From Chloroflexota bacterium (GTDB lineage: Bacteria; Chloroflexota; Anaerolineae; UBA7937; B3-Chlor), in the NCBI GenBank assembly GCA_030603665.1, contig JAUVXJ010000003.1, forward strand, positions 335,377-399,376: a stretch of 64,000 nucleotides of DNA, read 5' to 3'. Of this stretch, positions 2,762 through 12,196 are shown piece by piece (position 1 is the stretch's first letter; each line of letters begins with the position of its first letter). The notes under the pieces are model-generated. The model was given only the letters and a program-made list of their open reading frames with translations, was not told the DNA's origin and did not search any database. A program made the translations under genes and the position numbers.

Positions 2762-3850
2762 CTATGGCTGCACCACCGCCTTTACCACCCTCAGCTTTTC
2801 CACATCGGCCAGAGCCTCGTCCAACTCCTCCAGCCCGTACACTCGGGTGATGAACCCTTCGTAGGGGAATCTATCCCCGTGCTTGGCCAGCACCTTGATC
2901 CCTCGATAGAAATGACTGAAATCGCTACCCCAGCAGCCTCTGATCTCCAAGTGCTTGCGATTGATGTCCCAGTGAGGGTTGATCTCCACAGAGCCCGCAT
3001 CTGTGTACTGTCCCACTACCACGTACCGCCCGTTGTCACGAGTCATACGCATACCCTCGGCGACGGCTGCCGGGTTGCCCGTGGCCTCGATAGTCACGTC
3101 GGCGCCTCGACCATGGGTCAACTCCCTCACCATGGCGATCCGCTCATCGGGGCCATGCTCCTCGATGTCGACAATATGGTCGGCGCCCACGGCACGCGCC
3201 ATCTCCAGGCGCTTCTTGGGGGCGCCCACCACTATCACCTGCGTGGCCCCGGAGAGTTGAGCCATGACTGCGGCATTGAGGCCCACTGGCCCGCACCCCT
3301 GCACCACGATAGCGTCACCTAGCTGAACCTCAGCGCGCTCCAAGGCGTGAGTGGCCGTAGGGAGGCCACATCCGGCAGCGATGTACCGCTCAGGCGTCAG
3401 TCCCTGGGGGAGCTTGATCACCTTGACGCCAGGCTTGAGATAGATGGCCTCGCTCCAGCCGCCCAGCAGCCCCTCGTCTGCGGAGTAGGTGATGCCGTAC
3501 ACCCGCCGGCTGGGACAGCGGGTGCTTGCCTTGGCCACCAGGCAGTACCAGCAGCTTCCACAACTCTCGTGGACGTCCAGAAAGGCGACGACGTCCCCCT
3601 CACGCAAGGCCTCTCCCTCTACATCCAGCACCTCACCTGAGAGGATGGAGATGCGCCCCACGCTAACGTGCCCCGGTATGATCGGGTATGGCACGCCGGC
3701 CAGGCGCCCGTGATGCAGGTGCACGTCTGTCCCACACACCTCGCTGAAGATGGTGTCAAGGAGCACGCTCCCCGCCTCCATCTCCGGCGCAGGGTAGTCG
3801 CGTACCTCCAGAGACTTTCCGGGAGCCGCCATGACCGCTGCTCTGTACAT
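2762..3850 (-). CDS. Zinc-dependent alcohol dehydrogenase (MDR family)
   Basis: This 362-residue protein has the medium-chain dehydrogenase/reductase layout: a GroES-like N-terminus with Cys39, then a Rossmann domain with GCGPVG and VVVGAPKKRLEMARAVGADH. A structural-zinc cysteine group is present (C96, C99, C102, C111), with one residue more than usual before the last Cys. The catalytic His61 is followed by Val (GHVSVG) where most zinc enzymes have GHE, so the zinc site may be altered. The substrate cannot be told; threonine or polyol dehydrogenases and Zn-alcohol dehydrogenases are all close. The gene starts at ATG 3850 behind GGAGG, only 9 nt after the HgcAB-like gene, so it is probably the last gene of that operon. 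Confidence 0.88.
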   Translation of the reverse strand: MYRAAVMAAPGKSLEVRDYPAPEMEAGSVLLDTIFSEVCGTDVHLHHGRLAGVPYPIIPGHVSVGRISILSGEVLDVEGEALREGDVVAFLDVHESCGSCWYCLVAKASTRCPSRRVYGITYSADEGLLGGWSEAIYLKPGVKVIKLPQGLTPERYIAAGCGLPTATHALERAEVQLGDAIVVQGCGPVGLNAAVMAQLSGATQVIVVGAPKKRLEMARAVGADHIVDIEEHGPDERIAMVRELTHGRGADVTIEATGNPAAVAEGMRMTRDNGRYVVVGQYTDAGSVEINPHWDINRKHLEIRGCWGSDFSHFYRGIKVLAKHGDRFPYEGFITRVYGLEELDEALADVEKLRVVKAVVQP

Positions 3851-3859
3851 CCTGTCCTC

Positions 3860-4984
3860 CTATCTCTCCACGCGCTTTCCCATCAGGTTTAGCTTGAACT
3901 TCCTGATCGTCTCCGGTGTAATCGTTTCTCCCCTGGGGCTCTGGAATTGAAGAGCGTCGAAGGGGCACTGCACGATGCAGGCCCCGCACTGCACGCACTG
4001 GTGCGCTCTGGGCATGGCTGCGCTGTGCTGAGCACGATTCACCTCATAACAATCGCGGGGACAGACGTCCTCACAGTATCCCACACCCCTGCACTTCCCT
4101 TCATCCAGAACGACCTTGAGGATCCTGTCCTCGTGCAAGCCGCTCTTGTAGAGAGGCGTGCTGCCCATAAGGTCAATAAGCATCACCCCCAGAACCGCGA
4201 ATGTCAGCACTCCCCATCGCCCGATTTCTCCCCACGGCGCGTAACCGAGCGCAAAGGCGTAGCTGGCAAGCACGAGCATCGCTGCAACCCACAGTACGGC
4301 GAAGACGGCAAGCAATACGGCGCCGCCTCTGAAGCCAGAGCCCAGCCAGCGCCCATACAGCGGAAAGGACATGTATAGGACCAATGCCAACACCCACACC
4401 ACGCAGATCGCAGACACAAGGGCATGACGCCAGAATACAGCCGTGATCAGCGCCAACACAACGGAGATGGGAAACGCCCAGGACGCAGCCATCTCCAGGC
4501 GCTCTGTCCAGGGGAACCTCACCTGACGCATCCCTGCACCCTTCTTCAACTGGGTATCGAGGAAGAGCGGGATATCGTCAGCGTAGACAGGCCCCCACAC
4601 AACCTTCCATCCGCTCTTGCGCTCCAATACCCTACCTTCCACTCCGGTAGCGGCAAGTTGCGGCAGTATCACCTGTCGATGGTCTACTCGGTCCTCGATA
4701 CCGCTGGTCTTGAGCACCGACAGCACATCGTGATTGGTCAGCAGCCCGCCGGTGGCCGCGCACCACACGTTGATACCCCTGCTATTCGCCACCAGCAGGT
4801 AAGCGTCCACGCCCCTCAACGCCCTACGGACCCGCTCCACCGTGAGACGAAAGTTACAGGTCAACAAGACGGGGGAATCTCTGTCGGGTCGCCCGATTTC
4901 CAAAAGCCCGGTCTGACTGGACCAGGGCACCAACCTAAGCAGCGTCCCGACGATGCTCACCAGAGCGTAGCCCAAGAAGCTCAT
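3860..4984 (-). CDS. HgcAB-like fusion protein: corrinoid-binding domain, membrane helices and ferredoxin
   Basis: The 374-residue product begins at ATG 4984, which overlaps the TGA of the upstream methyltransferase as ATGA; an in-frame extension further upstream is not needed. Residues about 35-165 match the corrinoid-binding domain of HgcA, with the cap-helix motif NVWCAATGG at 72-80 whose Cys75 corresponds to the cobalt-binding Cys of HgcA. About four hydrophobic helices follow (near 169-186, 188-207, 221-244, 256-274). The C-terminal 80 residues are a ferredoxin like HgcB: an irregular first cluster C298-x5-C304-x3-C308-x3-C312 and a canonical second one C330-x2-C333-x2-C336-x3-C340-P. 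HgcA and HgcB together methylate mercury in known organisms; fused relatives are known but mercury methylation by them is not established. The likely role is methyl transfer on a membrane corrinoid with an attached electron donor. The methyl acceptor is unknown. Confidence 0.88.
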   Translation of the reverse strand: MSFLGYALVSIVGTLLRLVPWSSQTGLLEIGRPDRDSPVLLTCNFRLTVERVRRALRGVDAYLLVANSRGINVWCAATGGLLTNHDVLSVLKTSGIEDRVDHRQVILPQLAATGVEGRVLERKSGWKVVWGPVYADDIPLFLDTQLKKGAGMRQVRFPWTERLEMAASWAFPISVVLALITAVFWRHALVSAICVVWVLALVLYMSFPLYGRWLGSGFRGGAVLLAVFAVLWVAAMLVLASYAFALGYAPWGEIGRWGVLTFAVLGVMLIDLMGSTPLYKSGLHEDRILKVVLDEGKCRGVGYCEDVCPRDCYEVNRAQHSAAMPRAHQCVQCGACIVQCPFDALQFQSPRGETITPETIRKFKLNLMGKRVER

Positions 4985-5643
4985 TCTCCGTCCTCCACCG
5001 GCTTCCTGGCGACCAGTTCCATGAAACTTCCGAGGTTCGTCAATCTGATCGACTTCAGAACGAAGCCAACTCCCTCCACCTTCTGAGGCAGGTCGCTCAC
5101 CGCGTGAGTCGTGGTCTGAGTCCACACGTAGGCAACTATGGCCAGAGGCAATCTTATCAGGCCTTTCAGCAGCCGCTTGCCGAAGCTGCCAGGCACCACT
5201 TCGTCGGCCAGTAACAGCAGGCCTCCGGGCTTCACGATCCTCATCGCCTGCTCCAAGGCGTAGGTCAGCTCGTCCGCAGTCAGCTCCGAGAAGCAGAGCC
5301 CGCTCATCACCACGTCGTAGAAGTCGGCCTCTTCGTTATCGAGTTCGGCGACGCCCATCTCGCAGAAGTCAACGGTATCCACCAGACCTGCATCCTCTGC
5401 TTTCTGACGGGCGATCTCCAACATCTGTGAGTTGACGTCGATCCCCTTCACTCGGGCGCCCCTGGCGGCAGACCTCAGCGCCAGCGCCCCCGTGCCGCAC
5501 CCCAGGTCGAGGACCCGCTGTCCTTGCTCTACGTGGGAGACCAGGCGATCGTAAGCGGACTCCAGCCGCCCGAAAGTCAGGACACGCAGGCCCTTATCGT
5601 ACCTGCCGGGTGCCGACTCCAGTATGCGCATCAACACATACAT
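4981..5643 (-). CDS. SAM-dependent methyltransferase coupled to the HgcAB-like protein (CpaM-type)
   Basis: This 220-residue class I methyltransferase has the SAM-binding motif VLDLGCGTG at 44-52, an acidic loop GIDVNSQML and a motif-IV region with VMSGLCFSEL. I chose ATG 5643; the frame is open further upstream but the sequence there does not look like this family. Its stop overlaps the start of the HgcAB-like gene by 4 nt (ATGA), so the two are translationally coupled. Methyltransferases described as corrinoid-protein-associated (CpaM) are found beside HgcA-like proteins, and the N-terminal VLESAPGRYDKG-like segment fits my memory of that family, but I could not search it. It may load a methyl group from SAM onto the corrinoid, or modify the product; this is inference. 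Confidence 0.85.
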   Translation of the reverse strand: MYVLMRILESAPGRYDKGLRVLTFGRLESAYDRLVSHVEQGQRVLDLGCGTGALALRSAARGARVKGIDVNSQMLEIARQKAEDAGLVDTVDFCEMGVAELDNEEADFYDVVMSGLCFSELTADELTYALEQAMRIVKPGGLLLLADEVVPGSFGKRLLKGLIRLPLAIVAYVWTQTTTHAVSDLPQKVEGVGFVLKSIRLTNLGSFMELVARKPVEDGE

Positions 5644-5720
5644 GCTCACGGTACACCACCTGGTCCGAATCGCATCAGCAGCTGAAGAGGCCGGCCACGG
5701 ACACCGAAGCCACAACCAAA

Positions 5721-5748
5721 AGGCGGGAAGGGTTTCTCCTCCCCGCCT
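5721..5748 (-). terminator. Rho-independent terminator between the IclR gene and the methyltransferase
   Basis: Read on the minus strand, AGGCGGG (5748-5742) pairs with CCCGCCT (5727-5721), the stem extends inward by about four pairs, and a short TTTT follows. It lies 130 nt after the IclR stop and 78 nt before the CpaM-type start, so it either ends the IclR message or acts as an attenuator for the corrinoid operon. Confidence 0.65.
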
Positions 5749-5878
5749 CCAACATCTCGGCCTCGCTCAGCTTCGACTTCCGGTTCTACGGCCGAGGGCC
5801 CGCGTAGTTCGCCAGTCCGCTCCTTGGTGATCACTCACGAGCATTGCGCTACCAACACCAATGCTCCTCATACAGGCG

Positions 5879-6643
5879 CTAGACAAACACCTTGTATTCT
5901 TGAGGTTCGAGCCTTTTGCTCACCTCTCTGGCCACGCCAAGCATGATTTCCGGAGCCTCCAGAGCTTTTGCAGACGTGAAGCGATAAGACGGGCCGACCA
6001 CGCCAATCGCCGCCACCACCTCGTTCCGTCCCCTGCGCACGGGCACGGCAATGGCGTTCACTCCCTCATCCTCCTCTTCCCAACTGGTCGCGTAACCCCG
6101 CTCGCGTACCATCGCTACCTCGGCACGTAGCTGGTTGGCGTCGGTCATCGTATTCGCAGTCCGGGACGTCAAAGGCTCATTCAGGTACGAGTCCAATTCG
6201 GCTTCCGCCATGTGAGCCAGGAAGACCTTGCCCGCTGAGGTGGAGTGGAGAGAGCCGCTGCCAAGCCAATTGACAGCCTGGACCATGTGGGGACCAGGCA
6301 CCTGGAGGACATCGATGATCCTGTCTCCATCTCTGATGGAGAGAAAGGTTATCTCCTTCACCGTGTCAGCCAGGTAGTGCAGGTAGGGAAGAGCAACCTG
6401 AGGCAGTCCACGGCTATTGAGCACTGCATAGCCGAGCTCCACCAGCCGAACGCCTAATCGGTACCTGCGGGTGCGAGGGTCACGCTCGACAAGCCCCCCC
6501 CGTTTCAAGGAAACGAGCAGACGGTGGACGGTGCTCTTGTGAAGACCGAGCACATTGCTCAATTGGGTCACACCCAGGTAGTCTCCTTCGGCTCGGAGAG
6601 CTTCCAGAATGGCCACAGCCCTATCAACTGACTGTACAGGCAT
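5879..6643 (-). CDS. IclR family transcriptional regulator
   Basis: The 254-residue protein has an N-terminal winged helix (SVDRAVAILEAL, VTQLSNVLGLHKSTVHRLL, RYRLGVRLVELG) and a C-terminal IclR effector domain (HSTSAGKVFLAHM, TMTDANQL, ERGYATSWEEEDEGVNAIAVPV). ATG at 6643 is preferred because GGAGGTGA lies at a suitable distance; a TTG nine bases upstream sits too close to it. IclR proteins usually control catabolic operons and themselves. The nearest same-strand targets are the CpaM-type/HgcAB-like/alcohol dehydrogenase genes, but a terminator separates them, so regulation of that operon is only a hypothesis. The promoter overlaps an imperfect palindrome that could be its own operator. Confidence 0.93.
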   Translation of the reverse strand: MPVQSVDRAVAILEALRAEGDYLGVTQLSNVLGLHKSTVHRLLVSLKRGGLVERDPRTRRYRLGVRLVELGYAVLNSRGLPQVALPYLHYLADTVKEITFLSIRDGDRIIDVLQVPGPHMVQAVNWLGSGSLHSTSAGKVFLAHMAEAELDSYLNEPLTSRTANTMTDANQLRAEVAMVRERGYATSWEEEDEGVNAIAVPVRRGRNEVVAAIGVVGPSYRFTSAKALEAPEIMLGVAREVSKRLEPQEYKVFV

Positions 6644-6670
6644 GTTTGACAATCACCTCCATATCCATCC

Positions 6671-6700
6671 GGACGTTTCCGTTATTATAACAGACGTTCC
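6671..6700. promoter_or_regulatory. Imperfect palindrome over the IclR promoter (putative operator)
   Basis: The centre GTTATTATAAC (6681-6691) is a perfect palindrome around one base, and the outer parts GGACGTTTCC and GACGTTCC are imperfectly symmetric. It covers the -10 box of the iclR-type gene, the place expected for autorepression. Confidence 0.45.
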
Positions 6701-6711
6701 AGTCTTGTCAA
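6684..6711 (-). promoter_or_regulatory. Promoter of the IclR gene
   Basis: TTGACA (6711-6706), a 16-nt spacer and TATAAT (6689-6684) on the minus strand, both perfect boxes. Confidence 0.75.
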
Positions 6712-6738
6712 GTTGAGGTCTCTCATTACTCATGTGTG

Positions 6739-6767
6739 TTGACACTTCACACCATCTAACCTATACT
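6739..6767 (+). promoter_or_regulatory. Promoter of the phoU-like gene
   Basis: TTGACA (6739-6744), a 17-nt spacer and TATACT (6762-6767), about 95 nt before the GTG start at 6869. Confidence 0.75.
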
Positions 6768-6868
6768 CTCTCATACTCCAGTCACCACCATCATTCCCTT
6801 CCCCGGCGGGTGCGGAACCGTCGTCAGCGCCGGCCGCTCCCGCCAGCAAACGAGAGAGGAGAACCAGC

Positions 6869-7561
6869 GTGTCACGTAAGAGCTTCGATCGGGAACTGCA
6901 GCGTCTCCAGGACGAGGTGGTTCAATTGGGGGACGTGGTTGAGAAGGCGATCGTCCAGTCCGTGAATGCCCTCACGGACCGCAATCGGCAGGCATCGAAC
7001 AGATTGATAGGGGCGGACCGAGCCATTAACGAGAAACGATTCTCCATCGAGGGCGACGCTCTGACACTGATCGCCACTCAACAACCCCTGGCGGGCGACC
7101 TGCGGACTATCTTCGCCGTGGTGGAGATCGCTAACGAATTGGAACGTATAGCCGATTATGCCAAGGGCATCGCCAAGGTCAGCGTGATGATGCCCGACGA
7201 GCCCCTCCTGGAGCCTGGTGTGCATCTTCCGGTCATGGCCGCCAAGGTGCGGGACATGCTCCATCGTGCCCTCCAAGCTTTCGTAACCCAAGATGCGACT
7301 CTTGCCCGAGCCATTCCTGAGCAGGACCATGAAGTGGATGCACTGCACAATCAGGTGTACCGCGAGTTACTTGCCCTGATCACAGGCGATCCCGACACTA
7401 CTGACAATGCAACCTATCTGCTCTGGGTGATCCACAATCTAGAGCGGACCGCTGATCGCGCGCTCAACATATGCGAGCGTGTCGTATTCAACGTCACAGG
7501 AGAGATCGTGGAGATGGACATGGAGGAGGGCCAGTTTCTAGGCCTTGAGGGCCTCTCGTGA
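6869..7561 (+). CDS. phoU: PhoU-like phosphate regulatory protein
   Basis: The 230-residue protein consists of two PhoU helical repeats, with the recognisable segments NEKRFSIEGDALTLIATQQP, AGDLRTIFAVVEIANELERI ADYA in repeat 1 and YLLWVIHNLERTADRALNI in repeat 2. PhoU proteins act in the cytoplasm, binding metals and restraining the PhoR kinase and Pst phosphate transporter. The GTG start at 6869 has AGGAG about 9 nt upstream. No pst or phoBR gene lies beside it, and it has its own strong promoter, so it appears to be a single-gene unit here. Confidence 0.93.
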   Translation: MSRKSFDRELQRLQDEVVQLGDVVEKAIVQSVNALTDRNRQASNRLIGADRAINEKRFSIEGDALTLIATQQPLAGDLRTIFAVVEIANELERIADYAKGIAKVSVMMPDEPLLEPGVHLPVMAAKVRDMLHRALQAFVTQDATLARAIPEQDHEVDALHNQVYRELLALITGDPDTTDNATYLLWVIHNLERTADRALNICERVVFNVTGEIVEMDMEEGQFLGLEGLS

Positions 7562-7728
7562 CGCTCAGAGTCCATGGTCACTTGACCCACGTACCTTTGC
7601 ACACTGATGAGAAGAGACGCAATCCCCGCCCTGGCCGCACCGCGTCGCATCACAGCCCCAGGCAGCCAGTGCCTGGAAGAGCCGCAGTGTTGCACACCTT
7701 CATGGCGAAGGCCTCCCTCTCCAGCGCG

Positions 7729-7757
7729 TTGACACGGGTGAGCAACCGCGCTATACT
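7729..7757 (+). promoter_or_regulatory. Promoter for the MBL-fold gene, placed for a leaderless transcript
   Basis: TTGACA (7729-7734), a 17-nt spacer and TATACT (7752-7757). The expected transcription start, 7 nt after the -10 box, coincides with the GTG start codon at 7764. Confidence 0.7.
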
Positions 7758-7763
7758 ACGCGC

Positions 7764-8660
7764 GTGCTAGCTGAGATCGCCCCACGTATCTTCCTGGTCC
7801 GCGGGCAGAATCAAGGACAGTTCCCCTTTTCCCACTCCATCCTCATCCGAGACAATGTCACGGCTCTGATCGACACCGGTTGCGGCATTGAGCGGCTCGA
7901 GAGGGTCAAAGAACGGTACGCACCGGACCTGGTGATCAACTCCCACGCCCACCCCGACCACATTCCCGGCAACTGGGTCTTTCCCGACCTGCCCCTGCTC
8001 GTTCCCCGCCAGAGCTTTCACTACACAGGTCGGATAGAGCTAGTCTCGGAACGGTTCACCGAATCCAAAGAACTGGCCCGGCAGTGGAGGGAGTATGTGC
8101 GAGAGGCCACGGACTTCCGGGACGCCCTGCCCACGGACCACTACGACGAGGGACACCATTTTCGCTTCGGCTCTGTGGAGCTGATAGCGCTGCATTGCCC
8201 CGGGCATACGTGGGACTCCTACTGCTTCCTGGAACCGAATCTCCGCATCGCCTTCACCTTCGATATGGATCTCTCCCCCTTCGGCCCCTGGTACGGTCAC
8301 CCCGACTCCGAGATAAGCGACTTCGAAGCTTCCCTTGAGCGCGTACGCGCCCTGAAGCCTCGACTGATTGTGACATCCCATATGGGCATCATTGTCGAGG
8401 ACATAGAAGCAAGATGGGATGCGTACGCAGATGTGATCCCTCAGCGGGAGAGGCGCATCTTGAATTACCTCTCAGAGAAGCGAACGATGGAAGAGATGAT
8501 CGGGGCGCCTTTGATCTACAACAGCTACCCCTTCGCCCCGGAGCTGCTCCGTCGGTGGGAGGAGAACATGCTGCGCAAACACCTGCACCGGTTGGAGGAG
8601 CGGGGATCGGTGAAGAAGACTGAGCGGGGGTACATGAGGGCTGCCGCGGGTGAAGAGTAG
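7764..8660 (+). CDS. MBL-fold metallohydrolase with C-terminal winged-helix region
   Basis: The 298-residue protein carries the metallo-beta-lactamase signature HAHPDH at 61-66, a third-ligand region LHCPGHTWDS near 148 and a later FDMDLS and TSHMGI. Such proteins bind two zinc or iron ions and hydrolyse esters, thioesters or glutathione adducts; the substrate is not evident. The last 70 residues, with ERRILNYLSEKRTMEEMI and a basic tail, resemble the winged-helix domain often found after glyoxalase-II-like MBL domains. The GTG at 7764 has no ribosome binding site and lies exactly where the promoter would start transcription, so a leaderless mRNA is likely. It converges with the next gene with only 17 nt between. 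Confidence 0.88.
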   Translation: MLAEIAPRIFLVRGQNQGQFPFSHSILIRDNVTALIDTGCGIERLERVKERYAPDLVINSHAHPDHIPGNWVFPDLPLLVPRQSFHYTGRIELVSERFTESKELARQWREYVREATDFRDALPTDHYDEGHHFRFGSVELIALHCPGHTWDSYCFLEPNLRIAFTFDMDLSPFGPWYGHPDSEISDFEASLERVRALKPRLIVTSHMGIIVEDIEARWDAYADVIPQRERRILNYLSEKRTMEEMIGAPLIYNSYPFAPELLRRWEENMLRKHLHRLEERGSVKKTERGYMRAAAGEE

Positions 8661-8677
8661 ACCTTAGTGCTCCGTCT

Positions 8678-9433
8678 TCAACCTGCGCTGGCCAGGCCCC
8701 CTGCGATCTCCCCACCATCGATCACGAAGGACTGCCCTGTGATGAAGCCAGCCTCGTCCGAGGCGAGAAAGGCAAACAGGGCAGCCACCTCCTCGGGTCG
8801 CCCCAGCCTTCCCAGCGGGATTTTGCTGGAGTGGGCCCGCTGCATCTCCGCCGTATACTCCGTTTCCTGCATCGGCGTCAGAATGAAGCCTGGACACACT
8901 GCGTTGACCCTCACCTCGGGAGCTAGCTCCAGTGCCATGGAGCGGGTCAACTCCACAACCCCAGCCTTGGAGGCGTTGTAGTCAGCGTAGAAGGGATACC
9001 CCATCAAGGCGTTGGTCGAGCCCATATTCAGAATGACGCCGCCCCCTCGATCCAGCATCCTGCGGGCCGCCTCCCGCGCGACGAAGAACACCCCATCTAG
9101 GTTGACGCCCATCACGTCGCGCCACTCTTGAGGGGTGATGTCTATGAAGCGGTGGCGGATGCTGATCCCCGCATTGTTGATCAGCACATCAAGCCCACCG
9201 AGCACTGCGTCCAGCTCATCAAATGCCCGGGCCACATCCTCGGCGTCGGAGACGTCGGCAACAAGGCGACAACTCAACCCCGGCAACTGTTTCTCTACGT
9301 CGGCCAGCGCCTCCTCGTCACGATCGAGCACGGCGACACGGGAGCCCTCCTGGAGGAAGCGAGCCGCCGTGACCATGCCGATACCTCGTGCGCCACCGGT
9401 GACGAGAACCCGTTTTTCCTCAAGACCGCGCAT
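8678..9433 (-). CDS. SDR family oxidoreductase
   Basis: This 251-residue classical short-chain dehydrogenase has TGGARGIG for nucleotide binding near 12-19, NNAG near 86, and the active-site YNASK with Ser in NMGSTN. The acidic residue after strand 2 (VLDRDEEAL) favours NAD over NADP. The C-terminus GRPEEVAALFAFLASDEAGFITGQ is typical of FabG/glucose-dehydrogenase-like members. The substrate is unknown. It follows a second SDR after 12 nt, its own GAGGAGG overlapping that gene's stop, so the pair is probably cotranscribed and may act on the same or successive substrates. Confidence 0.92.
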   Translation of the reverse strand: MRGLEEKRVLVTGGARGIGMVTAARFLQEGSRVAVLDRDEEALADVEKQLPGLSCRLVADVSDAEDVARAFDELDAVLGGLDVLINNAGISIRHRFIDITPQEWRDVMGVNLDGVFFVAREAARRMLDRGGGVILNMGSTNALMGYPFYADYNASKAGVVELTRSMALELAPEVRVNAVCPGFILTPMQETEYTAEMQRAHSSKIPLGRLGRPEEVAALFAFLASDEAGFITGQSFVIDGGEIAGGLASAG

Positions 9434-9445
9434 GCTATCTCCTCC

Positions 9446-10210
9446 TCATCCTGCTAGTCCACCGCCGTCCACCACGAGAGCTGTTCCCGTCACATAGGAC
9501 GAGGCGTCGCTGGCCAGGTACAGCGCCGCCTGGGCTATGTCCTCGGGAGTACCGATGCGCCGCAGCGGCCGGTCGGTTGCCTCCTCTAGAAAGCGCTGTA
9601 CAGGTTGTCCCAGCTGGCGAGCCTCATCTTCCAGCAATGGCGTGTCGGTATCGCCCGGGCAGATGCAGTTCACGCGGATATTCTGCGGCCCGTGGTCGAT
9701 AGCCATGGCTTTGGTCAGCAAGACGACGGCTCCCTTCGAGGCACAGTAGGCCGCCGCCCTCGGGCCTCCTACCAGACCCCAACCGGAGGACGTATTGATG
9801 ATCACGCCTCCCCCAGCCTGGGCCATCAGTGGGATGGCGTACCTGGAGAAAAGGAACATGGACTTGACGTTGACCGCCATCACCTGATCCCACTCCTCCT
9901 CTGCCAGCTCCACGACGGTTGCCCGCCGGATGATGCCTGCGTTGTTGAAGAGGATGTCCAGGCCCCCCAGCGAGCTGACCGTTCGCTCCACAGCATCTCG
10001 GCACTCTGAGGCCCGGGTGACGTCGGCCCGCACGAAGATCGCCCGGCCGCCTTCTTCCTCGATCATACGAGTCACGCTCCGCCCGCCCTCCTCATCCAGG
10101 TCCACCACGGAGACAGCCGCGCCTTCGCGGGCGAACAGCAAGGCCGTCGCCCTGCCGATCCCCGAAGCGCCGCCGGTGATGAGGGCTCGCTTGCCCGCCA
10201 GCCTACTCAT
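9446..10210 (-). CDS. SDR family oxidoreductase
   Basis: The 254-residue protein is a second classical SDR: TGGASGIG near 12-19, NNAG, INTSS and YCASK active-site motifs, and VVDLDEEGG after strand 2, again suggesting NAD(H). ATG 10210 is chosen because GGAGGAG lies 5 nt upstream; an upstream TTG has no such support. It is the first gene of a two-SDR unit downstream of the molybdopterin oxidoreductase, 42 nt away. Paired SDRs of this type often oxidise sugar acids or hydroxy acids, but nothing here fixes the substrate. Confidence 0.92.
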   Translation of the reverse strand: MSRLAGKRALITGGASGIGRATALLFAREGAAVSVVDLDEEGGRSVTRMIEEEGGRAIFVRADVTRASECRDAVERTVSSLGGLDILFNNAGIIRRATVVELAEEEWDQVMAVNVKSMFLFSRYAIPLMAQAGGGVIINTSSGWGLVGGPRAAAYCASKGAVVLLTKAMAIDHGPQNIRVNCICPGDTDTPLLEDEARQLGQPVQRFLEEATDRPLRRIGTPEDIAQAALYLASDASSYVTGTALVVDGGGLAG

Positions 10211-10252
10211 GGACTCCTCCAACGAACTCTGATTCCAGCGCTGCCAAAGCGC

Positions 10253-12196
10253 TTATGGTTTGGTGATCGTCACTCTCGCTGAGTTGAATCTTGGCCCGCC
10301 ACCAATCTCCTGCGGCTGGCCACTCATCAGACAGTTCTGTGGCTGTCCCATCAATCCCTCCGACTGCCTCGGTGACCACACTATCCCCTCACGGACTGTG
10401 CCAGAAACAGTGGCTTTCACCTTCACCTCTCCAAGATCATTGGAGAGCGCCACGACATCGCCGTTTTGGATGCTCAGCTGCTCAGCATCCTGCGCATTGA
10501 TGATCACCACGGCGGGAATGGCGCCATAGACCTCTTGGAACTGAGTGCTGGTGTACCTGGGGGTGGCGCTGGTCAGCAGGATGAACTCACCTTTCGGGAT
10601 GCTCAACGGAACCTGTGTTGGCAAGGGAGTCAATCCCAATCCCGCGGCCTTGGAAGAGTAGAACTCAATCTTGCCTGATGGCGTAGCATAATTGTCCTTT
10701 GGCTTGCTCCTGAGTTTTAGCACTCCACCCGACCTCAGTGACCCAACACTCCCTTTCTCCAAGGCATCTTCCAGTGCCAGCTCGACAGACGCCCACGGAT
10801 CTTCAAAGAGCCAGTCTTCTGCCAAACGCAGCCGCTTGGCGAGTTCCCTCATGACCCAACTCTCGCTTCGGCTGTCAGTGACCGGCGGAACGACCTCAGG
10901 GGAGAGTTGGACATGGTCGTGGCTCCAAGGAATGACCAGGTCCTCCTTCTCCAGATAGGTCGGTGCAGGAAGGACAACGTCTGCATACTCCGCCGTCTTG
11001 GTCCAATGTGTGTCATGAACCACCAGAAAGACGTCTCCCTTTGATAGTCCCTTTCGCAGGGCATGCTGATTCGGGAGCGTCAGAGCGGGGTTCATGCAGC
11101 TCACGTAGATGAACTTGAAATCGCCGCGCCCCACGAGATTGGCTACGGCAACCTGGCTGACAACCTCCGGGACTTTCTCGGCGAGCGCTCGGCCAGAAAT
11201 GAGCTCCTCATCTATGGAGAAGGCGCTTGCGCTGCTATAGAAGAAGCCTCTGTGTTGGCCGAGCAGCGCAGGGATAAGTGACACAGCCCGCACCTGATCG
11301 GCGCCCTGGTCGCATTTTTGCAGCCCAATGCCGATCAGCGTAGCGCTGGGCTTCAGATTGCCGTACGCCTCTCCCAGCCGCTCCACATGGTTCCACGCAA
11401 CCCCAGTAATGTGCTCCACACAATCCGGGCCGTACTTGGCCGCCTCTTCTTCCAAGTGTTCGAAGCCCAGCGTCCAATCCTTGAGGAAGCCCAGGTCCAC
11501 GTACCCCTTCTGCGTCAAGTAGTTGACCAATCCGAAGCCCAAGGCCACGTCGCTTCCCGGCCAGGGCTGAATCCAAAGGTCGGCGTCTCTCGCGGTGCGG
11601 CTCTCTCTGGGGTCGATGACCACGATTCTAGTCCCTCGTGCCCGTCGAGCTTTCCTGGCCAGAGACCAGATGTGAGGCGAGCTCACGGCGGCGTTGAAAC
11701 CCCAGAACACGATCAGATCCCTGGACAGTAGCTCCGGGGGCGCCATGCCGTAGCTATCGCCATAGTGCAAGCCTATCGCGGCGTGGCCGGATGCGCTGCA
11801 TATCGCGTGGTCCGTCTGCGTGGCGCCAAGAGCGTTCCAAAGTCTGGTTGGAAATGCTCCGGTCAACAGTCCAGTGTTCCCAGCATAATCCAGATACAAT
11901 GCCGCCTCGCGGCCATGCTTCTGGAGAACTTCAGCCAGTTTCTCGGACACCATGCTGAGCGCTGTACCCCAATCAGTCCGTACGAAATGGTCGCCCTGGC
12001 GAAGCGCAGGGGCCTCGACTCGGTTCTGGAACAATCGTTCGTGGTCTTTGGCGCCCCGAGGACAGGTGAAGCCCTGGGTCATCGGATTCCTTTGGTCACC
12101 CCTGATCTTCAGTACCTGCCCCGACTCGTCGAGGGTAACTAACAGTGCGCAGGTATCGTAGCAGTCCCGGGCACACACCGTTTGAACTTCCTTCAT
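10253..12196 (-). CDS. Molybdopterin-dependent oxidoreductase, cytoplasmic, with one 4Fe-4S cluster
   Basis: The 647-residue protein belongs to the DMSO-reductase/formate-dehydrogenase superfamily. The N-terminal cluster motif is C8-x3-C12-x3-C16-x28-C45. A Mo-ligand candidate is Cys133 in HAICSASGH. Nucleotide-binding stretches (DLIVFWGFNAAVSSPH, VVIDPRESRTARDADLW, VLPAPTYLEKEDL) and a C-terminal molydopterin-dinucleotide domain (ATPRYTSTQFQE, IWSPRQSEGLMGQPQN) are visible. There is no twin-arginine signal, so it should stay in the cytoplasm. No partner subunit lies beside it. Formate-dehydrogenase-like or other small-molecule reductase activity is possible, and the sequence does not decide. 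ATG 12196 follows AGAGG. Confidence 0.88.
   Translation of the reverse strand: MKEVQTVCARDCYDTCALLVTLDESGQVLKIRGDQRNPMTQGFTCPRGAKDHERLFQNRVEAPALRQGDHFVRTDWGTALSMVSEKLAEVLQKHGREAALYLDYAGNTGLLTGAFPTRLWNALGATQTDHAICSASGHAAIGLHYGDSYGMAPPELLSRDLIVFWGFNAAVSSPHIWSLARKARRARGTRIVVIDPRESRTARDADLWIQPWPGSDVALGFGLVNYLTQKGYVDLGFLKDWTLGFEHLEEEAAKYGPDCVEHITGVAWNHVERLGEAYGNLKPSATLIGIGLQKCDQGADQVRAVSLIPALLGQHRGFFYSSASAFSIDEELISGRALAEKVPEVVSQVAVANLVGRGDFKFIYVSCMNPALTLPNQHALRKGLSKGDVFLVVHDTHWTKTAEYADVVLPAPTYLEKEDLVIPWSHDHVQLSPEVVPPVTDSRSESWVMRELAKRLRLAEDWLFEDPWASVELALEDALEKGSVGSLRSGGVLKLRSKPKDNYATPSGKIEFYSSKAAGLGLTPLPTQVPLSIPKGEFILLTSATPRYTSTQFQEVYGAIPAVVIINAQDAEQLSIQNGDVVALSNDLGEVKVKATVSGTVREGIVWSPRQSEGLMGQPQNCLMSGQPQEIGGGPRFNSARVTITKP

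Follow-up and report, generated by a model that had tools for sequence, protein, structure and literature searches.

CpaM, a class I methyltransferase closely linked to fused HgcAB-like corrinoid proteins in bacteria and archaea

In the Wood-Ljungdahl pathway, CFeSP is a soluble protein with methyl-tetrahydrofolate as its methyl source, and its gamma subunit has the same corrinoid-binding fold as the protein analyzed here. Canonical HgcA and HgcB (models NF040863 and NF040864) also resemble that protein in having a corrinoid domain with a Cys cobalt ligand, a membrane domain and a dicluster ferredoxin. The cap motif published for HgcA is NVWCA(A/G/S)GK (PMC7536318), and its corrinoid contacts are T60, T66, V91, and C93; in the HgcAB model the cluster nearer to the cobalt is cluster B, and Cys73 of HgcB together with at least one C-terminal Cys is required for full mercury methylation (PMC7305189). 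In canonical HgcAB, Co(I) is methylated by SAM with no helper protein (PMC11588087).

Fused HgcAB-like proteins and an accompanying methyltransferase have already been named by NCBI curators (NF043039, HgcAB-like fusion protein, and NF043040, corrinoid protein-associated methyltransferase CpaM), both under family names that carry no function. A literature search revealed no paper using the name CpaM in the corrinoid-protein-associated sense, and no paper on the function of NF043039 or NF043040 proteins. What is new here is a set of extra fusion variants of an already named pair.

The locus and its two protein families

The window, a stretch of 64,000 nucleotides from contig JAUVXJ010000003.1 of a Chloroflexota bacterium, carries one such pair, with the following features:

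2762..3850, minus strand: zinc alcohol dehydrogenase ORF, co-directional, not a conserved module member
3860..4984, minus strand: HgcAB-like fusion gene, 374 aa (NF043039, 445.1 bits, cut-off 285)
3935..4129, minus strand: dicluster ferredoxin domain, residues 286-350 (NF040864, 44 bits, under the cut-off of 99; dicluster ferredoxin structural matches, Z 8-9)
3962..3997, minus strand: second cluster motif, C330xxC333xxC336xxxC340P (no Cys missing in any of 75 homologues)
4049..4093, minus strand: first cluster motif, C298-x5-C304-x3-C308-P-x2-C312, lacking Cys II (sequence and homologues)
4175..4510, minus strand: four predicted membrane helices, residues 159-270 (AlphaFold2 secondary structure and hydropathy)
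4547..4927, minus strand: corrinoid-binding domain, residues 20-146 (2ycl_A, Z 19.0; PF03599, 64.5 bits)
4745..4771, minus strand: cap-helix motif NVWCAATGG, residues 72-80, with Cys75 as candidate cobalt ligand (homologue alignment)
4981..4984, minus strand: ATGA overlap of the cpaM stop and the HgcAB-like start (sequence)
4981..5643, minus strand: cpaM, 220 aa, class I SAM methyltransferase, the upstream gene of the pair (NF043040, 277.3 bits, cut-off 180)

In the profile search, the fusion protein matched NF043039 over model positions 2-350 of 350 and CpaM matched NF043040 over positions 1-216 of 216; with both curated models exceeded far over their cut-offs, the pair is not a chance resemblance. 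It has the gene order and architecture of these families, and nothing was found that excludes it from them. The sequence-only reading had described an HgcA-type corrinoid domain, about four membrane helices and a ferredoxin in one 374-residue chain, coupled through ATGA to a class I SAM methyltransferase. This architecture is supported by the sequence, the NF043039 match and AlphaFold2, and the overlap was located at 4984-4981. The same reading had placed a zinc alcohol dehydrogenase at 9 nt from the fusion gene: the spacing is correct (its ATG lies at 3850), but the dehydrogenase was rejected as a module member, being seen only in one close relative (L040), which is syntenic with window 2764-12196. 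An IclR-type regulator ORF (5879-6652, minus strand; family recognized by eye) lies upstream of cpaM in the same direction, and is common to L040 only through general synteny. Neither RNA families nor tRNAs were detected within the window.

The AlphaFold2 model of the fusion protein (pLDDT 90.6, pTM 0.88) superposes at residues 4-146 on the CFeSP corrinoid domain 2ycl_A (1.7 Å over 129 residues), which agrees with the earlier proposal that the N-terminal region belongs to the HgcA/CFeSP corrinoid family, and the published HgcAB model 9a0b was also matched. As in HgcA, the CFeSP-like domain has a conserved Cys in the position of the lower ligand, Cys75, which is kept in all 75 fused homologues. 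T42, T48, V73, and C75, each conserved in at least 73 of the 75, map to the HgcA contacts T60, T66, V91, and C93, respectively, when aligned by spacing from the cobalt-ligand cysteine. The cap-helix motif first noticed by eye was confirmed; its sequence departs from the published HgcA motif in that the Lys is replaced, both in the window protein and in nearly all of the 75 homologues. Long membrane helices were modeled at residues 159-184, 186-205, 220-246, and 251-270, that is, four by prediction only, compared with five in HgcA.

HgcB has two regular CxxCxxCxxxCP motifs, the first of which lacks Cys II in the window protein. The irregular C-x5-C-x3-C-x3-C pattern reported previously is therefore real, and is better described as loss of Cys II, since 62 of 74 family members have a residue other than Cys at position 301. 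An extra Cys312 is present in 47 of the 74, and Cys is absent from both 301 and 312 in 18, which implies a distal cluster with three cysteine ligands in those members. Comparison with other three-Cys ferredoxins suggests that this cluster would be of the [3Fe-4S] or site-differentiated type. The cobalt-proximal cluster, equivalent to cluster B, keeps all four ligands.

CpaM has the features of a class I SAM methyltransferase, including the GxGxG motif and the acidic residue of strand 2, and its SAM motifs are intact: G48 and G50 (SAM motif), the acidic D69, S119, D147, and E148 are invariant in 68 homologues. A conserved hydrophobic helix was also observed near residues 157-175.

Linkage of CpaM with fused proteins and separation from canonical hgcAB

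A scan of named genomes yielded 80 loci, and the linkage count takes in the 70 fused homologues for which 700 bp or more of upstream sequence was available. CpaM was directly upstream in 69 of these, with a spacing of -40 to +30 nt in 64 of the 69 pairs and the same 4-nt overlap as in the window in 20, demonstrating that the association is close to obligate. Among the named hosts of the linked pairs are members of Chloroflexota, Myxococcota, Thermodesulfobacteriota, Acidobacteriota, Pseudomonadota, and Actinomycetota in the bacteria, and of Heimdallarchaeota, Methanobacteriota, and Thermoproteota in the archaea. In the sole exception (L081), CpaM was found neither nearby nor elsewhere in the genome bin, in which a gap is possible, and for fused loci at contig edges CpaM was present in the genome in five of seven cases. 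CpaM and HgcAB distances were strongly correlated (r 0.89; none of 2000 permutations was as high, the maximum being 0.34), part of which reflects shared descent.

Clustering of neighbors within 9 kb revealed no third partner gene common to the clades; other recurring neighbors were generic and scattered in position (ABC ATPase and short-chain dehydrogenase). Dependence on the Wood-Ljungdahl pathway was considered and rejected, as CFeSP gamma was undetected in 28 of 50 host genomes, some of them incomplete metagenome bins. A Wood-Ljungdahl methyl source thus seems not to be required, and the presence of the fusion protein in many genomes without detectable CFeSP sets it apart from that system. 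CFeSP-type subunits are present in the window's own genome. Many of the searched genomes are metagenome bins, and absences such as those of CFeSP in the 28 genomes and of CpaM in L081 may be gaps.

The linkage extends to natural gene fusions. CpaM and HgcA form one chain, with a separate ferredoxin (HgcB) gene, in three loci (L010, L011, and L115), and CpaM, HgcA and ferredoxin are joined in a single 629-aa ORF in a fourth (L188:1381-3267, plus strand, genome G536), which exceeds the cut-offs of both NCBIfam models; this genome also carries canonical HgcA. Conservation of the linkage to the methyltransferase in related genomes, shown by the 69 of 70 fused loci, is reinforced by these fusions. 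In the AlphaFold2 model of the natural L115 CpaM::HgcA chain (pLDDT 87.3, pTM 0.85), the joint fold suggests that CpaM occupies a defined position relative to HgcA. As a separate observation, L122:1459-2051 holds an apparently broken CpaM with a ferredoxin fragment directly behind it in a different frame, either through deletion or through assembly error.

Canonical hgcAB is a separate system. No CpaM was found within 1.5 kb of canonical hgcAB in any of 33 loci, a sample weighted to Desulfobacteria, consistent with the previous statement that canonical mercury methylation does without such a methyltransferase. Among 301 Chloroflexota genomes, a CpaM match was detected in six. In five of these, CpaM adjoins an HgcA-like gene or is fused to it; the remaining copy is broken and lies next to a ferredoxin fragment. 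Among 241 Desulfobacteria genomes, canonical HgcA exceeded the cut-off in 98 and CpaM did so in nine. Each of the nine CpaM genes adjoins an HgcAB-like gene or forms part of one, and none coincides with canonical hgcA. In a quick maximum-likelihood tree, canonical sequences formed one group (support 99) and fused sequences another (support 85); three of the four CpaM::HgcA fusions fell beside the fused group, and the fourth, L013, has a very long branch and an uncertain position. Canonical HgcAB thus differs in tree group, in being unfused and in having five helices against a predicted four, and the window protein in turn has lost the cap Lys, Cys II of the first cluster, and the Cys73 and tail Cys of HgcB, and is linked to CpaM. 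Several genomes, among them G315, G388, G397, G458, G469, G536, and G368, carry both systems, which argues against their redundancy.

Divergent HgcA-like genes with N-terminal membrane helices were also observed (L193:1850-3253, L194:1806-3194, and L195:2021-3184, the last on the minus strand). The cap motif is intact in L193 and L194, each of which is followed by an HgcB-like gene with a Cys tail; the L193 protein scores about 178 bits, under the NF040863 cut-off, and no CpaM was seen in the stretch examined.

Mercury-handling cysteines and the methyl acceptor

The pair might instead be an alternative hgcAB that does methylate mercury, which would fit its homology to both HgcA and HgcB, the Cys at the cobalt-ligand position and the combination of membrane helices with a ferredoxin. 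However, the window protein scores 165.6 bits with the HgcA model NF040863, against a cut-off of 275, and the cap lysine is absent. Beyond Cys340, neither the window protein nor 58 of 74 homologues contain any further Cys, so that the Cys73 and tail cysteines of HgcB are missing, unlike in the 33 canonical loci, where the Cys73 position is occupied by Cys or an in-frame TGA and a Cys-rich tail is present in nearly all. In addition, Pyrococcus furiosus and Methanococcoides methylutens, both with fused genes, produced no methylmercury in culture (PMC5893877, PMC7319479), and the occurrence of both systems in several genomes also speaks against this explanation. On its side, the ferredoxin tail is still rich in Cys in one CpaM-linked fused sub-clade (L105, L108, and L112), where one Cys lies near the Cys73 position, 14 residues past Cys IV compared with 13 in canonical HgcB. 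On the whole, mercury methylation by the pair appears highly improbable. The acceptor is probably not Hg(II), because the mercury-handling cysteines of HgcB are missing, and the original suggestion of an acceptor other than mercury is strengthened by this loss and by the negative cultures.

In L124, L125, and L179, canonical HgcB has an in-frame TGA codon in place of that for Cys73, in agreement with the suggestion, cited in PMC11588087, of a selenoprotein.

A proposed methyl-transfer machine and its meaning

The coupled SAM enzyme had been taken to suggest a methyl-transfer or corrinoid-reloading system. The linkage on which this idea was built held in 69 of 70 loci, and from it we infer that CpaM loads the corrinoid, that SAM is the methyl donor of the fusion protein, that the methyl group flows outward from SAM, and that it reaches a probably non-mercury acceptor. 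With a probability slightly better than even, the pair would be a self-contained, membrane-bound methyl-transfer machine. In such a machine, the in-chain ferredoxin domain would reduce the cobalt of the corrinoid held in the HgcA-type domain, on which CpaM would dock at the membrane; CpaM would then methylate Co(I) from SAM to give methyl-Co(III), probably with Cys75 as the lower ligand, from which the methyl group would pass to the acceptor. The methylation of canonical HgcAB by SAM at Co(I) (PMC11588087) speaks in favor of this scheme.

In the main rival explanation, the corrinoid protein would be methylated by SAM directly, and CpaM would carry out a separate methylation of the acceptor, either preceding or following that by the corrinoid. 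Because canonical HgcAB uses SAM with no helper (PMC11588087), the target of CpaM could instead be the acceptor or a product formed later. Structure comparison of the L115 CpaM domain with SAM-bound class I enzymes (Z 20-22) revealed likeness to small-molecule methyltransferases, such as Coq5/UbiE, CmoA, and phosphatidylethanolamine N-methyltransferase, which would suit this explanation; however, the resemblance of fold is generic, and the single-chain CpaM-corrinoid fusions and the confident joint fold of the L115 chain fit direct partners better than sequential soluble steps. Action of CpaM on the acceptor rather than on cobalt is thus rather unlikely, at perhaps one chance in several.

Many corrinoid proteins take methyl groups off substrates, and the pair might accordingly be a demethylase or methyl scavenger, in which the corrinoid accepts a substrate methyl group that CpaM handles afterwards. 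Yet no conserved neighbor gene for a methyl-accepting step or a substrate-specific methyltransferase was found, and a methyl transfer from methyl-cobalamin to SAH should be thermodynamically unfavorable. This is the least probable of the explanations considered.

A broader view may tentatively be taken, to which we give somewhat less than an even chance: that a system parallel to mercury methylation has spread through bacteria and archaea, in which a dedicated Rossmann-type SAM enzyme methylates the cobalt of a membrane corrinoid protein, the acceptor is not mercury, and many members have a three-Cys distal cluster.

These findings bear on the role of fused HgcAB-like proteins and on what HgcA-type proteins evolved for. 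CpaM offers a biochemical handle, being encoded at almost all fused loci tested and in some cases joined to the corrinoid domain in one chain; this handle is timely given the recent identification of SAM as the donor of canonical HgcAB (PMC11588087). In addition, the sharp split between CpaM-linked and canonical loci should be useful to surveys, in which counting fused HgcAB-like genes as mercury methylators probably overestimates methylmercury potential.
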